From positions 806,001 through 870,000 of the forward strand of contig NC_026659.2 of the NCBI RefSeq assembly GCF_000004075.3: 64,000 nucleotides of DNA, read 5' to 3'. Shown one piece after another: positions 45,499 to 60,500 of this stretch. This stretch comes from Cucumis sativus (taxonomy: Eukaryota > Streptophyta > Magnoliopsida > Cucurbitales > Cucurbitaceae). Made by a program: the position numbers and the translations under genes. The notes beneath the pieces were generated by a model. That model did no database searches. It saw only the letters and a list, made by a program, of their open reading frames with translations, and was not told the origin of the DNA. Each line of letters starts with the position of its first letter. Position 1 is the stretch's first letter.

Positions 45499-45657
45499 CT
45501 AGCGGTTGTCTTGTTGAGTGGGCACCTGGGTCTTGGACTGCCCGTCATCGGTTCTTGATTGTGAGCTATGGGTTCCGCCATTGTTCTTGTTAAGCATTGG
45601 TTTGTTGAACAAGATTTGAGCAGCAAAGGAATCGAATAAGCCGAACAAAGAATTCAT
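45499..45657 (-). CDS. Small protein of the MNSxFxLFD type (copy 1)
   Basis: A single-exon open frame of 52 aa on the minus strand, starting M-N-S-L-F-G-L-F-D-S-F-A-A-Q-I-L. The rest is polar, rich in Asn, Gln, Ser and Thr, with no membrane segment after the hydrophobic first 17 residues. CTATAAAT lies at 45759-45752, about 95 bp before the ATG, a well-placed TATA box. The N-terminal 13 residues match copies 2 (46089) and 3 (49285), which is the main reason to call it a gene. It lacks the C-terminal D-G-L..F-E-T-L-V motif of copy 3, so it may be a shortened copy. It stands head to head with copy 2. I do not know a function. Confidence 0.65.
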   Translation of the reverse strand: MNSLFGLFDSFAAQILFNKPMLNKNNGGTHSSQSRTDDGQSKTQVPTQQDNR

Positions 45658-45751
45658 GTTGATGGGATTTGGTTGAAATCGGTGTTCTTCGTCTTCTCGT
45701 GTTTCTTCGTATGACGATTTGATACGAATGGGAAATAGGGGGTTTGGTTAA

Positions 45752-45759
45752 ATTTATAG
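45752..45759 (-). promoter_or_regulatory. TATA box of small gene copy 1
   Basis: CTATAAAT on the minus strand, about 95 bp upstream of the ATG at 45657. The same eight bases occur upstream of copy 3. Confidence 0.6.
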
Positions 45760-46002
45760 AGGTTTGCTTCCATCTTATCTTTATCTCAAACACTCTTAAT
45801 TTAAACAATTCCGAGAATATTAAGGAATTCTAATCTTATATCTAATGGGAGAGATTTTCTATATCTCTCGATTTAGCCTACGAGGGATTTTCTAATTTCC
45901 ACATCTTTTTATTAAACAAAATTCTAAAAAACTTATTCCGAGTAGTAAAAGGAAATTAAAGGTAATTGGAATTAGGAAAATGTGTGGGGGTCTATATATA
46001 TA

Positions 46003-46012
46003 TATATAAATA
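46003..46012 (+). promoter_or_regulatory. TATA box of small gene copy 2
   Basis: TATATAAATA at the end of an AT run, about 60-80 bp before the possible start codons at 46071 and 46089. Confidence 0.5.
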
Positions 46013-46070
46013 AAAATATTTCTATCTAATTCTATCTCTCATCTTGAAAAGAAGAAGAAAATTGAAGAAT

Positions 46071-46292
46071 ATGAAATCAAATTGGAAGATGAATACATTA
46101 TTTGGTTTATTTGATGTATGTGCTGTTCATTTTATTATAAAGTACTCTAAAAAGCCTCCTCCTCCTCCTTCCTCCCATCCTCCCTTCCCTTTTCCTTTTG
46201 CTTTACCACTTCCTCTCTCCGTCAAGCCGCCCCCGTCGCCTCCCAAGACCTTGCCGGAGTTGGGTGTCATCGTTTCCCTTCAACATTCTTAG
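46071..46292 (+). CDS. Small proline-rich protein of the MNSxFxLFD type (copy 2)
   Basis: A single-exon open frame. The first ATG after the TATA box is 46071 (73 aa), but the family signature M-N-T-L-F-G-L-F-D begins at the in-frame ATG 46089 (67 aa), so either may be used. After the signature comes V-C-A-V-H-F-I-I-K-Y, and then a proline-rich tail with P-P-P-P-P and repeated P-F-P-F-type steps, ending P-E-L-G-V-I-V-S-L-Q-H-S. The clear C-terminal motif of copy 3 is not visible. It is divergent from copy 1, with 413 bp between the start codons. The composition of the tail is odd for a real protein, so expression should not be assumed. Function unknown. Confidence 0.5.
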   Translation: MKSNWKMNTLFGLFDVCAVHFIIKYSKKPPPPPSSHPPFPFPFALPLPLSVKPPPSPPKTLPELGVIVSLQHS

Positions 46293-46544
46293 ATTATGTT
46301 TTGTGTAATTTCAAAATTAGATGATAATCACATTCTTTTATTTACTTTTTATATATGATATGATATGATCATAATTTGGATACAATGTGGTTGCCTATGG
46401 ATTCAAATTTTACTTCTCCATTATTATTCAAAGTTAGATTCTTCATTTTCAAGTATTGCAAAAATGAACTAAATTGTAGAAAAATATTATTCTATGGTGG
46501 TGATAGATGGTGGTGTTCTCTCATACTAATATAAACATTACTAA

Positions 46545-46875
46545 TAGTATTTGATAGTATAATGTTTTATCTTAAAATCAATTGACATTGAAAAAGACTA
46601 ACTAGTTCATCTATCTAAGAGTTTGAGTTCTCTTTGTTTTTTTGATGTGAGATTCTCAATATATCCTCAACATCGCATCTCTTTCGGATTCATAAATCTA
46701 GATCGAATTACAATTTTTTTTATTTGATAGAATACCTATTGGACTTTATGGTTCTAATACCATATTTGATAGTGCGAAATTGTATATCAAAATCAATTAA
46801 TAATAACAATAGAAGGAGTAGCTCTTCTATTTCATAATAAAGAATTTGAGTTCTTTTTAGTTTTTATTCACGACA
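46545..46875 (-). mobile_element. TRIM-like short LTR retrotransposon, two LTRs, minus orientation
   Basis: Read on the minus strand, the 5' LTR is about 46875-46763 (outer end truncated by some 25 bp). The primer site TGGTATTAGAACC follows at 46762-46750. After a 77 bp interior, the 3' LTR runs from 46672 (TGTTGAGG) to about 46545. The two LTRs share ACTATCAAATA at one end, the block TCAATTGATTTT or TTAATTGATTTT in the middle, and AGAACTCAAA. Both align along their length with the LTR at 1641-1770. The whole element is about 330 bp with no coding capacity, which fits a terminal-repeat-in-miniature element. The LTRs differ at many sites, so the insertion is old. Confidence 0.65.
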
Positions 46876-47655
46876 AAGTTTGGATTAAAACCAAAGTAAA
46901 CGAATAGTGTATATATATAATATGAATTCTTCATTAGATATAGTATTTTAATGATTGTGGTAAGATGTATATTTGAAAGAAAAAGGAAAGCTAACAAAAA
47001 TTAAAATCAGCAAAAGGGCCTCTCGAAAACAAAGTGAAAATAAAATTAAAACCAATCCATTAGCTTTTCTCTATATTATTAGACGTTAGTTTGGTTGTTG
47101 ATTGTCTCCAAAACTATAATATTACACTAATATATCAATAGTCACTATTTGTGATCGTATTAGTTTAATCTTATTTGTGATATGTTTGTCTTAAATTTAT
47201 TTTGAAAAATTAACTTTTTAATCTTGGATGAATATGTGTTTTTAGTTTTTAAATTTTGAAAACAAATTTTTTAATCCCACATTTATAACAGTACTCGTTT
47301 AACACCAGAGTTTTCAAGATATTTCTTTTATTTTAAGTTTGATTTTTTAAAAAATAATTATATGATATTTATATTTTAAAAAAAGTTTCAAAAATGTCTA
47401 TAATTATTTAAAATAAAAGTACACATTTTGAAAAATCAGTTTTCGAAACTAAATGAATTTATTCTTATAAAAGCTAAAAACCAAAGTCTATTTTTAAAGG
47501 TAATTATCCCCTCTATTGTTGTTTTGTGTTAAAAAAATTACTTTCTAAAATGTTTTTAATCCTTAAAAATAATTATAAAATGAAAAATTTAAATAATAGT
47601 TAAAAGAAGAGTGTGTTTGGGGAACAATTATGGAAGGAAAATGGTTATGAAAGGT

Positions 47656-47695
47656 TTATGTGTTTGGAGAAAGGATTATGTGTTTGGAGAAAGGA
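47656..47695 (+). repeat. Perfect 20 bp tandem duplication
   Basis: The 20-mer at 47656-47675 is repeated without change at 47676-47695, and a degenerate third start follows. There is no gene context. Confidence 0.9.
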
Positions 47696-47869
47696 TTGTG
47701 TAGGAAGTTATTATAATAAAATATGTTTGAGAGAAAGATTATGTAGATAGTGTTATAAAATTTATTTTGTTAGATATTTTTTTTTAACTTCGTATTTATT
47801 CAATATGAATTTTGTATATTTGATTTACCAAATTATCTTATTTTCGTAAATGTAAATAACTTATTGATT

Positions 47870-47980
47870 TTTTAAATAAATTTGTATTCTAAATATTTAA
47901 ATAAATTTGTATTCTGAATCCAATTTCCAACAAATTTTTTTATTTATTGAATTTCTAAATAAATTTGTATTCTAAATATA
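47870..47980 (+). repeat. Dispersed AAATAAATTTGTATTCT repeats
   Basis: Three near-identical copies of AAATAAATTTGTATTCT lie within about 110 bp, in the same orientation and unevenly spaced. This is simple AT-rich local duplication. Confidence 0.7.
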
Positions 47981-49042
47981 ATTAATTTCAAATTTCGTAA
48001 AACAATTTAAAAATATTTTAGTTTTTGATGTTAAATTATTATTTTAAAAAATTAATATTCTAAACTCTAGTATATTTAATTTATTAAAAATGATAATTAA
48101 ATATGATAAAAATTATAATAAACCAACTAAATATATAAAAGTAAGGAAGACGAAAGAGAAAAAAAAAAGAGCACATTTAAGCATAATGGTAAATTAATTT
48201 CGTAAATAAAATAAATTTTTTTTAAAAAAAGAAACTATGGAATGTTGAAAAAGGTGGATTATGAAAAGTTAGGGAGGGATTGAAAAAAAAGAGAGGAAAG
48301 AGGAGTTATAATAAACGTAAAAGAAGGTAACCCTAACCCCAATAACCATTCTCCAAAAGCCCCCTAAATTTTGAGGTGGATGATTATTGAATTGTAACAC
48401 TTTACATTGTTTCTTTTCGATTCCAATAGCAGCTTAATATTTTGAAGGCAACTACGATCGGTGTGTAAAATATAAAACTGTAATGAATTTAGGAAACATT
48501 TGATCTTTTGTTAGATGACCTTTTTTTTTCTTTTATCTTTTCCTTAATTTGTGAGCCACGCCATGCCACTCATTCTTTCTTTTTATGTTTCCCAAACTTC
48601 TCTTATTATATTCTTTCCGTAGTGTTACTTCCAACAAATTCCCATCAATGTAATAATTTACGATTATTCTTTTATCAATTACAAACCGTTTTCACAATTC
48701 ACAATTCACAATTCCCAATTCTAACAACAAACTCTTAAGATTATCCATCCAGATCATTCACAATACTTCAAAAATATGAAACAATAATTAACCAGCAAGA
48801 GCAATGAATTAACGAATATAGTATCAGAGATTTCATATCAAATTCCAGCGTATAACAGAATCCAATCATCTAATTCCAACCAAAAGAAGAAGGCTGATTT
48901 GTATTATAATACAATTCTAGTTTCCCAATATTATCCTCAAATTTCGTCGTATAACCTAACTTCTAAACCCTTAAACTGAAAGAATGAATGAAAAAAAAAT
49001 ATATGAGTTGAATTGAATCTTTGATTATTTCATCCGAAAACC

Positions 49043-49285
49043 TCAATTGGGGACGAGAGTCTCAAAGCAATTGAGACCATCCAACTCCAGAGCAAACCTC
49101 GGCTTCATCAACGAATTCTTGGATTTCGGTTCTTCTTCCTTCTTACTAGGCAGCGGCTTCGGAACGGCGGGGGAGGCGTTGTTGTTGTTGGGAGTGAAGG
49201 AAGGAACAGAGGAGGAAGCCCTAACGAAATTGCCGAGGAGGAATTCGGCAGCGAAGGCGTCGAATAAACTGAACATGGAATTCAT
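49043..49285 (-). CDS. Small protein with MNSMFxLFD N-terminus and DGLxxFETLV C-terminus (copy 3)
   Basis: A single-exon open frame of 80 aa on the minus strand. The N-terminus is M-N-S-M-F-S-L-F-D-A-F-A-A-E-F-L-L-G. The middle is disordered: Ser, Asn and Pro-rich, then the charged stretch K-K-E-E-E-P-K-S-K. The C-terminus is K-P-R-F-A-L-E-L-D-G-L-N-C-F-E-T-L-V-P-N. CTATAAAT at 49374-49367 is about 82 bp upstream. This is the most complete of the three copies. Its C-terminal motif recurs in the gene at 52721-53106. From memory, short unnamed plant proteins with this layout exist in other dicots, but I cannot check that here. There is no signal peptide, membrane segment or known domain. Function unknown. 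Confidence 0.75.
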   Translation of the reverse strand: MNSMFSLFDAFAAEFLLGNFVRASSSVPSFTPNNNNASPAVPKPLPSKKEEEPKSKNSLMKPRFALELDGLNCFETLVPN

Positions 49286-49366: not shown

Positions 49367-49374
49367 ATTTATAG
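49367..49374 (-). promoter_or_regulatory. TATA box of small gene copy 3
   Basis: CTATAAAT on the minus strand, about 82 bp upstream of the ATG at 49285, identical to the box of copy 1. Confidence 0.65.
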
Positions 49375-52720: not shown

Positions 52721-53106
52721 ATGAAAGGCTCCTGCACTTTGCTCGCCTCCGTCCTTGCTGCCTCCACCATGGCTTTCTCCTCTTCTTCCTCCTCCTCCTC
52801 CTCATTCACTGGAGATCGCGACCTCCCTCTTTATTCTCTTTCTCATCAGGCATTATCTCTATCTCCTTCGCTTTCCGTTGTTTCCTTCTTCGATTTCGAC
52901 GAATCTCCATGAGCTAATCGAGTTTTTTTTCTTCTTTTTTTCTTTTTTGATTTGGTTTGGTGGATTGTGTTTCTTTTTAGGGCTTCGTTTCGGAATCTGG
53001 TGCGAACAGAGGTTGTGGCGCGGATTCTTCATCGGAGAAGGAGAAATTTGCGCCGAGGTTTGATGGATTGAGATTCATTGAGACTTTGGTAACTGCTCAT
53101 AGATAA
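52721..53106 (+). CDS. Small protein ending PRFDGLRFIETLVTAHR
   Basis: A two-exon gene. Exon 1 starts at 52721 (M-K-G-S-C-T-L-L-A-S-V-L-A-A-S), runs through nine Ser codons and continues D-L-P-L-Y-S-L-S-H-Q. Exon 2 (52981-53106) follows a strong T-rich acceptor and encodes the conserved tail K-F-A-P-R-F-D-G-L-R-F-I-E-T-L-V-T-A-H-R. Exon 2 needs a phase-0 donor. The candidates are a GC donor after 52849 (CAG|GC, 84 aa) or a GT donor after 52876 (93 aa); neither matches the consensus well, so the junction is unresolved. Without splicing the frame stops at 52912. The tail resembles that of copy 3 at 49043. The first 17 residues are mildly hydrophobic but not a clear signal peptide. I recall this C-terminal tail as conserved in small plant proteins of unknown function. 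Confidence 0.7.
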
Positions 53107-57092: not shown

Positions 57093-57527
57093 GTGAGTCA
57101 TTCATTTTCTTTCTTCTTCTTCTTTAGTTTCGGATAGTTTCACATTTCCTTTTCATTTCTTGAGCTTGCTCTTTCATATTATGGTTGTCGGTCTTTGATG
57201 AGTGGGCTATTTGTTAATGCTTGCTTGTTTTTAGTTGAGCTGTTCAGTTTTATGTGAGTTCTTGTTCTGAAATAGCTTTGATTCTGTCTTTGTATTTTTG
57301 TTGTTTCTTGATCACTTTGAAATTTTGTTTGTATGGAAGCGGATTGAGCTGGATTGAGCATGATGGTTTTCATTTCAATGGATTTCGATTTTTTTTTGTT
57401 TTTTTTTTTTTTTTGCATGTCAGATTATTTGGAGTGTTTTGCATGTGTTGATTAGTGATGTTACGTTATGGTTTATTTGCTGGAGGTGAATGGATGTTAT
57501 TGTTCTGATTTCTGGATGCTGTTTTAG
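57093..57527 (+). other. Leader intron of GBSS1
   Basis: A CCA|GTGAGT donor follows a GC-richer leader exon (about 57000-57092) and a TTTTAG acceptor ends at 57527, seven bases before the ATG. Granule-bound starch synthase genes commonly have an intron in the 5' leader. This intron contains a 14-base T run near 57401. Confidence 0.7.
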
Positions 57528-57534
57528 ATCAAGG

Positions 57535-60500
57535 ATGGCTTCGATGGGAGCTGTGAGTGTATCAAACTTTGTTTCGAGGAGTTCTCTCATCAGTCATGGG
57601 GCTACAGCCTCAGAGACTAAGATGAGCCTTTCTGTTGGCGGGAAGAATCAAGTAGAAACACACAAGGGATTGAAATCCTTGAACAATCTGGATGTGCTGC
57701 GGAAAAGAACTCCTGCAAGTGCAATTTGCAGGACTGTGAGTAGGAAAACTGATGGACTTGGTGGAACTGCTGGGAAAATTGTGTGTGAACAAGGGATGAA
57801 TATAGTGTTTGTGGCTGCTGAAGTTACTCCATGGAGCAAAACTGGTGGGCTTGGTGATGTTCTTGGAGGATTGCCTCCAGCAATGGCTGTAAGTGAAGTT
57901 TTTTCGATTCGTTTTCATATGTAATATTGGCATAATTTTCTGTTATGGTCTGAATTTTTTACTGCTTTTATGTTTTAGGCTAGAGGGCATCGTGTCATGA
58001 CGATAGCTCCTCGCTATGATCAGTACAAAGATGCTTGGGACACGGATGTAACAGTCGAGGTAAATAGGTCCTTCATCTTTATGAAAATGGTCATTATTTG
58101 TTGTGGGGAGGAGACGAAGTAACCCAACAGTTTTGTGATATTTACATGAACATGACCAGATTCAAGTTGGGGACGCAATTTTAACTGTGCGGTTTTTCCA
58201 TTGCTACAAACGAGGGGTTGATCGAGTATTTGTTGATCACCCAATATTTCTGGAAAAGGTAATGTGAATTTCATAACTAAAGTTTGTGTGCATGGTTCTG
58301 CCGGACCTTTCTTCTAATGCTTTACGATGTGGATCTCAACAGGTTTGGGGCAAAACTAAATCCAAACTTTATGGGCCGAATGCAGGCGTGGATTATGATG
58401 ACAATCAGTTGCGATTTAGTCTATTGTGCCAGGTGATTAATTCCTTTGACTTGCAGATCATATTTTCATCCTCTAGCGGGTGGCATTGTATAGAGTGAAG
58501 ATATATACATTTTCCTTGTTCTGTTTTGAAATGTTTGTTCTTGTGCAAGATACGTTTCTGGGTTTGCTTTAATCTAGTTGGTTATTTTTCACTGAATACA
58601 CTTCCAACGAAAAAAATATTAACTAATTAATCACACAAAAAAAGTAATCGAGTGTCATTTTGTAACATATATAATTTTTTTTTTTGTAAATTTCATTTAT
58701 CCATCGTCTAGAAATGCTGAACGACATTTGTAAGTAGTTTATGTACAGAATATCCAATTTGCTAGGTGACTGAGACATTGGTAATTATCTTACCAATGAC
58801 ATGATTTCTTTCTAGTGGTACAACTTCCAACATTTATTTTATATTTAACCATTGAATCTCTGTGCTCATCAGGCTGCTCTGTTGGCGCCTTTGGTTCTAA
58901 ATTTGAACAGCAGCAAATATTTTTCAGGACCATATGGTATGCTTTTTATTCTTCTTCTTCTTCTTCTTCTTCTTCTTCTTTTTTCAGTAATGATGTAGTA
59001 ATCCTAATAAGTTGTGGATTTGGCCATAATATTCTAATCCTACTGCATCAAATTAGTTAAAGCTACTAGTTAACAATCAATTGACTAAGAAAATATTCTT
59101 CGCCAATTGGCAGGGGAGGAAGTTGTCTTCGTTGCCAATGATTGGCACACAGCTCTTCTTCCATGTTACTTGAAAACCATGTATCAAGCAAGGGGAATTT
59201 ATAAAAGTGCCAAGGTAGGTTTGTGCCACATTAGTTCTCTCTATTTCAGTAGATATATTAATATCACCTTTTACAAATTCAAGATCTGATATTGGTATCT
59301 CTCTTAAATGCTAACAGGTTGCTTTCTGCATCCACAACATTGCTTACCAAGGAAGATTTGCTTTCTCAGACTTTTCCCTTCTGAATCTGCCTGATCAATT
59401 CAAGAGTTCCTTTGACTTTACTGATGGGTGAGTGCCGTCAATTACTTTCCAGTCAATCTGCATGCCAGAAAATCTTATTCTCCCAACTCAACATGTGTCC
59501 TAAGAAATCTTGGTTTCTAGGTATGTAAAGCCTGTGAAGGGAAGAAAGATCAACTGGATGAAGGCTGGGATATTGGAATCTGACAGGGTGTTGACTGTTA
59601 GTCCATACTATGCCCAGGAGCTTGTTTCTGGAATTGAGCGAGGTGTTGAATTGGATTCCATTCTTCGTTTGACCACTGTTACTGGTATATTGAATGGCAT
59701 GGATGTTCAGGAGTGGAATCCTTCCACTGACAAATACATTCCCATCAAATTCAATGCTGAAACTGTAAGTTAACTAACTGACATGGTTCATATTTTCCTT
59801 CTAAATTGATTAAAGAAATTTCTTAGCCAGATCTTCACTTTCAGGTTGCGGAAGCTAAAGCTCTTTTGAAAGAAGCTCTTCAAGCAGAAGTTGGATTGCC
59901 TGTTGACAGGAACATCCCTTTGATAGGGTTTATTGGTAGACTTGAGGAGCAAAAGGGATCAGATATCCTATCAGCAGCTATTCCAAACTTCATTCATGAA
60001 GATGTTCAATTGGTGGTCCTTGTACGTACATATTATTTATTTCTTTTGCCCATTGGCCGCCTTATTTAGATGGAGGTTGATTTCCATTTTCTTTCTGCTA
60101 GGGAACTGGCAAGAAATACTTGGAGAAACAGCTTGAAGAGCTAGAGATAAAATATCCTGACAAAGCTAGGGGGGTAGCAAAATTCAACGTTCCTTTAGCA
60201 CATCTCATAAATGCTGCAGCTGATTTCTTGATGATTCCAAGTAGATTCGAACCCTGTGGTCTTATCCAGTTGCAAGCTATGCCTTATGGAACAGTAAGTC
60301 ACTAAAAATCGCATATATATATATATTTATAGTCATCTCTATTTCTTACCGGATACAATTCAAAATAGTTAAAACATACCCTTGAGGGTTGCCGCAAACT
60401 TCTGTTAGCACGCCCAACACAATAGCTTGATTATGTTGTATGTTTCAATTTCAGATTCCCTTGGTAAGCACAACTGGTGGACTTGCCGACACTGTTATTG

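Follow-up and report, generated by a model that had tools for sequence, protein, structure and literature searches.

The question raised by this stretch of cucumber (Cucumis sativus) DNA is how three very short, neighbouring open reading frames came to begin with almost the same residues and to end in quite different ones. The window, by which we mean the whole stretch of 64,000 nucleotides (nt) analysed, is contig C5:806001-870000 in a genome of 226,625,048 bases and 88 contigs, and the three frames are referred to here as g1, g2 and g3. We consider it probable that they belong to a cluster of old local duplicates of one flowering-plant small-protein family, in which g3 is the intact copy, g1 a copy without the C-terminal part of the protein (the tail), g2 a remnant, and a fourth gene, g4, a relative sharing the tail. 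The process at work is ordinary duplication and loss in an existing, uncharacterised family of plant small proteins.

Three frames with one beginning

The first-pass annotation of this DNA had described three single-exon frames of 52, 67-73 and 80 amino acids (aa) with a shared M-N-[ST]-x-F-x-L-F-D start. All three were found at the places it had given, and the range quoted for the second is explained by an in-frame upstream ATG of g2. The frames g1 and g2 stand head to head, with their conserved start codons 431 base pairs (bp) apart, and g3 lies 2.8 kilobases (kb) further on. Their features are listed below, with expectation values (E) from scans of all six frames of the window with profiles of the family head and tail; P0042 is a 74-aa protein from a 1,038-base contig.

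45499-45657, minus strand: g1, a frame of 52 aa that carries the family head but lacks the tail motif; the best reading is a copy without its tail
45610-45657, minus strand: g1 head MNSLFGLFDSFAAQIL, 16 residues identical to P0042; head profile E 4.6e-9
45752-45758, minus strand: TATA box TATAAAT of g1, starting at -101
46071-46292, plus strand: g2, 73 aa, or 67 aa from the second ATG at 46089; proline-rich, with nine head residues shared
46089-46115, plus strand: g2 head MNTLFGLFD; head profile E 0.11
45993-46011, plus strand: TA run in the TATA position of g2, -96 to -78
49043-49285, minus strand: g3, an intact single-exon gene of 80 aa with head MNSMFSLFDAFAAEFL and tail KPRFALELDGLNCFETLV-PN
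49238-49285, minus strand: g3 head, 16 codons; head profile 33.5 bits, E 8e-9
49052-49105, minus strand: C-terminal family motif of g3; tail profile 50.3 bits, E 2.7e-14
49367-49373, minus strand: TATA box TATAAAT of g3, starting at -88

A motif this short might recur by chance among AT-rich frames, and a looser version of the start pattern did match the genome at 72 places, with 39 matches for the reversed control. No further family member was found among the 30 of these 72 places that became loci, all of which were read; the remaining 42, viewed as the 27 matched bases, included the trio itself and one place on C6 that reads MN*LFGLFD in seemingly unrelated sequence. The C6 place was considered as a degenerate head and set aside: more stops follow downstream, agreement over the following 24 bases is limited to 7 positions with g2 and 11 with g1, and its likeness is probably fortuitous. 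The g2 head, too, was matched by the family head profile only with E 0.11. Against chance likeness stand the pair counts in the window, where the 212 ATG frames with a length of 40 aa upwards (nested ones included) gave 22,366 pairs; only three of these shared at least six of their first nine residues, and all three fell within the trio (6, 7 and 8 residues); the next class, five of nine, held 21 pairs. Furthermore, the DNA pattern for the start itself was found at five places genome-wide, and the open motif only in this cluster, three times within 3.7 kb, the two remaining places being one with a stop inside the motif and one that reads MNWLFYLFD. The head profile, which includes P0042, recovered g1 and g3 with the low E values listed above, and g3 is tied over its whole length to proteins of other plants. 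Chance likeness was therefore rejected for g1 and g3 and is unlikely for g2, and as an account of the trio we hold it to be very improbable; the shared start that had been reported is real and far beyond chance. The weakest of the three is g2, which is tied to the others by nine residues, its codon pattern and its location.

Within the surrounding 6 kb, no inverted repeat is longer than the one formed by the g2 head and the g3 head (40 nt, 70%). While the heads of the trio align in codons, the 200 nt upstream and 300 nt downstream align no better than shuffles, and since the flanks do not align beyond chance we take the duplications to be old. TATA boxes had been placed about 80-95 bp upstream of each frame, which is about right (g1 -101, g3 -88, and the TA run of g2 at -96 to -78). 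A TATAWAW was present 70-110 nt upstream of 152 of the 2,389 ATGs in the window, and CTATAAAT at such a distance upstream of five, with g1 and g3 among those having it. These boxes apart, no promoter sequence shared by the trio beyond shuffles was found in 200 nt (P 0.32 to 0.95). The G+C fraction is raised in g1 and g2 (0.46 each vs 0.32 for the window).

g3 and the C-terminal motif of its family

In a protein search, g3 matched 39 others at E values no higher than 0.021, in plants ranging from melon to grasses. Fourteen of these (P0002-P0014 and P0019) matched at 41-86% identity over at least 98% of the query, with identities of 86% for melon (whole length), 71-74% for two further sources, 57% for Momordica, 53% for Xanthoceras, 49% for Arabidopsis lyrata and 41-46% for Prunus. 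On these alignments, g3 is an intact member of a small-protein family of eudicots and grasses.

The most conserved part of this family is a C-terminal motif, RFALELDGLNCFETLV, rather than the start. Conservation was counted in 42 proteins gathered through words shared with g3 or g1, a choice by which the figures lean towards the motif. The core DG[LF][NHK]CFET was present in 41 of the 42, the exception being g1 itself, and was followed by four residues in 37 of the 41, by five in three proteins and by fifteen in one. By the strict pattern MNS[MIL]F[SG], the head was found in 15 of the 41 tail-bearing proteins; among the remaining 26 are grass members whose head is different, incomplete frames, g3 itself as read from an internal start, and a protein of Coptis in which the head is altered. 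Among the 15 proteins with both ends, mean pairwise identity was 0.87 for the tail vs 0.68 for the head. The grass relatives (Hordeum, Triticum, Sorghum and Panicum) carry the tail of g3, KPRFALELDGLNCFETLV, mostly at the same distance from the C-terminus, and differ from it by their head, for example MGSTEAILS or MASTDAILS. The earlier picture of conserved heads with unlike tails thus does not hold for the family, since the C-terminal motif is the better conserved end and the grasses keep it under another start. The related remark that the tails had diverged completely is correct for g1 and g2 compared with g3, but not for g3 itself, where the tail represents the family's old, conserved portion.

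The C-terminal motif RFALELDGLNCFET[LI]V beside the C-terminus is present in g3 and absent from g1 and g2, and neither of the latter is therefore filed as a full family member. The eudicot head MNS[MIL]F[SG]xFDxxxAE is complete in g3 and, apart from Q for E, in g1; in g2 it extends to nine residues, with T for S. Full-length matches to the proteins of other plants were obtained for g3 and not for g1, and g2 had no match of its own. Although the 18-residue motif is strongly conserved in eudicots and grasses, the members tested gave nothing above the curated cut-offs of Pfam and NCBIfam (the sole Pfam row was DUF6994, at 13 bits vs a cut-off of 27) and no sequence relative in the PDB; the motif strings were not printed in the open full-text library searched. 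One family protein of 85 aa with the tail, P0025 from Hordeum vulgare, is named 'Pyruvate dehydrogenase E1 component subunit alpha', evidently a wrong name.

Heads without tails

Besides itself, g1 has one relative in the protein collection, P0042, which it matches over a third of its length. The first 17 residues of P0042 equal those of g1 at 16 positions, those of g3 at 12 and those of the melon protein at 12, and P0042 then continues into a divergent family tail, RLTPDSDGFKCFETLV, so that a head like that of g1 is joined to the tail in this protein. No homologue of g2 was found among 71 candidates from a mixed alignment of g2, g1 and P0042, of which only g1 and P0042 passed E 10; g2 was searched in the collection inside this alignment, by which relatives of g2 may be missed. 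The best reading of g1 is a copy that lost its tail and that comes from a second lineage of the family, one predating the split from the source of P0042; g2 would be a copy whose recognisable part ends with its ninth codon. The two are most likely turning into pseudogenes. The earlier suggestion of local duplication followed by change or decay fits the codon-aligned heads with unaligned flanks as well as the tail-bearing relative of the g1 head.

The tail is missing from both frames in any recognisable form. With a frameshift-tolerant alignment over 330 nt from the ATG, in sense-strand frames, no tail remnant was found beyond shuffles for g1 (P 0.21) or g2 (P 0.11), and a frame-shifted remnant was accordingly set aside for both; in the same test g3 gave P 0.007, the floor of the test. 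Elsewhere in the genome there was no Lys tail variant like that of P0042, and no second copy of the g1-g2 kilobase was found at E 0.001 by a search that skips simple repeats. Between g1 and g2, codons 2-9 show 6 nucleotide differences with a single amino-acid change (P 0.006, one of nine tests), and codons 10-17 show no constraint (P 0.93). For the other two head pairs, codons 2-9 gave no significant result (P 0.19 and 0.11).

Two other accounts of the missing tails have to be set beside decay. The frames g1 and g2 could be working microproteins without a tail, whose head may bind or place a protein and which would compete with g3 as small inhibitors. Both have kept an ATG, an open frame and a TATA box at the right distance, their G+C content is raised, and the changes in codons 2-9 are nearly all silent. 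However, that constraint stops at codon 9, and a search of 5.8 billion proteins with a limit of E 10 gave a single g1 homologue (E 4.1), itself tailed, and none of g2, which was searched only inside the mixed alignment. We consider this account unlikely, and its fuller form, in which g1 and g2 are retained and translated as an inhibitor pair that has lost the docking motif and restrains g3 by competing for the partner of the head, more doubtful still. Alternatively, the tails might lie on second exons passed over by a single-exon reading, as they do in g4 (described below) and its two paralogues. This was rejected, since in the six frames of the window the tail profile rose above background only at g3 and g4, and two genome-wide tail patterns led to g3, to three genes of the g4 type and to two further places without the flanks of the motif; we regard a missed second exon as extremely improbable.

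A fourth gene and the meaning of the cluster

The first-pass annotation missed a further gene, g4, which lies 3.4 kb beyond g3 and is, by comparison of the two tails, a putative tail-sharing relative of it.

52721-53106, plus strand: g4, 84 aa in two exons (52721-52849 and 52981-53106), with head MKGSCTLLASVLAAS and tail FAPRFDGLRFIETLVTAHR; exon ends modelled on the C6 and C7 paralogues

In the window scan, the second match of the tail profile was at 53047-53091 on the plus strand (10.6 bits, E 0.07), between g3 at 50.3 bits and the next match at 5.3 bits. Between the tails of g3 and g4, 22 residues can be aligned (P 0.001, the lowest value that 1,000 shuffles allow). The tail pattern D-G-L-x-[CF]-[FI]-E-T-hydrophobic-V occurred at four places in the genome and at none in the control, with g3 and g4 3,981 bp apart; as this pattern was written after g4 had been seen, only its rarity and the linkage are independent. 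By our own arithmetic, the chance that one of three g4-type genes in 226 megabases (Mb) would fall so close to g3 is ~0.0001. With a shorter tail pattern, g3 was recovered together with two places that lack the flanks of the motif; one of them lies within a longer frame that is unrelated, and the other is bounded by stops. Taken together, the alignment, the rarity of the pattern and the linkage suggest that the tails of g3 and g4 are likely to be of common descent.

In the paralogues of g4 on C6 and C7 the head is similar, the intron sits at the equivalent position, and the string FAP[RK]FDGLRFIETLVTAHR is again present. The g4-type proteins of C5, C6 and C7, MK[KG]...AS[VA]...FAP[RK]FDGLRFIETLVTAHR, resemble g3 in having a related tail and a similar size, and differ from it in their other head, their intron, and a tail followed by TAHR rather than by two variable residues. 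The g4-type head MKK.G..AASVAAAS with an intron before the tail was found in none of g1, g2 and g3, and in g4 itself apart from differences in the head. If placed as in the C6 and C7 paralogues, both of which begin their intron with GT, the g4 intron (52850-52980) starts with GC and is probably a GC-AG intron. The C6 paralogue (L047, near 9104619) has 18 consecutive serines just ahead of its tail motif.

From its anatomy, g3 would be a small protein located inside the cell, with no folded domain that can be recognised, and built of a hydrophobic head of 16 residues, a variable, polar and probably disordered middle, and an 18-residue motif ending two residues before the C-terminus. The tail may be the motif by which the protein docks to a conserved partner, and the head may form a short helix in contact with a membrane or a partner. 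The database label of its relatives, discussed below, suggests that g3 may be among the quickly induced stress and defence genes. Of the other two, g1 would represent a second lineage that lost its tail and g2 a copy unrecognisable beyond its first nine codons, both probably decaying. An intact copy, a tail-less copy, a remnant and a relative with another head amount to a natural deletion series for which end of the protein does what.

Several results weigh against parts of this reading. The g1-P0042 match had E 4.1 in the protein search, the link being carried by 16 identical head residues; beyond residue 17 the two do not align beyond chance (P 0.22), and the loss event itself is unseen. When the genome was searched with P0042, the match to g3 (E 3.6e-6, whole length) surpassed that to g1 (E 0.005), as is expected if g1 is without the tail that P0042 and g3 share. 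The head of g2 is weak when taken alone (E 0.11), and the constraint on its first codons argues, modestly (0.006 in nine tests), against plain decay. For g4, the profile match in the window reached only E 0.07, and its homology to the g3 tail involves about 20 residues. A contacting helix is not favoured by the heads of the trio, which are not clearly amphipathic (P 0.10 for g1, 0.42 for g2 and 0.09 for g3), although, compared with shuffles, the helical moment came out high for Arabidopsis lyrata (P 0.004) and for one of the Prunus proteins (P 0.002), and borderline for P0042 (P 0.05) and Xanthoceras (P 0.06). Nor does the upstream sequence favour defence induction: no WRKY box (TTGACY) was found within 430-500 bp upstream of g1, g2 or g3, and the 1 kb upstream of g1 holds two bare TTGAC cores vs 1.6 in shuffles. 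Over 1 kb upstream, WRKY boxes numbered one for g3 (at -562), none for g1 and g2, and three for g4.

The label in question is 'Avr9/Cf-9 rapidly elicited protein', carried by three UniProt rows, one from Cucumis melo (A0A9I9CME3) and two from Dipteronia species. The melon protein is 86% identical to g3 over the whole length, and g3 shares head and tail with the aligned eudicot members, whereas g1 and g2 share only the head with these rows. The name is a database label derived from one of the original tobacco ACRE clones. Tomato ACRE75 and ACRE180 bear the same label and are likened to g3 by label and description; they are described as small, without a signal peptide, and raising resistance to Botrytis when over-expressed (PMC7821246). 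The label spans different proteins, as protein 146 is stated in another paper to have a DUF761 domain (PMC10346371). In cucumber, a study lists an 'Avr9/Cf-9 rapidly elicited protein' among the genes with altered expression following a volatile treatment (PMC12013339), a match to g3 by label.

The cluster is adjoined by starch synthase exons (Glyco_transf_5) at window positions 57490-59773. Arabidopsis presumably has a similar starch synthase neighbourhood, with AT1G32920 and AT1G32928 near GBSS1, and we would guess AT2G31945 and AT1G05575 to be family members; no link to g3 is claimed for either. These Arabidopsis genes are listed as changed by stress, microbes or a transgene in four papers (PMC5705785, PMC3485569, PMC3701873 and PMC4819186). 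Elsewhere in the genome, fifteen near-identical MN[GV]YFQTFD matches were seen within 0.5 Mb at C3:18065781-18530085, apparently a local repeat unrelated to the cluster.

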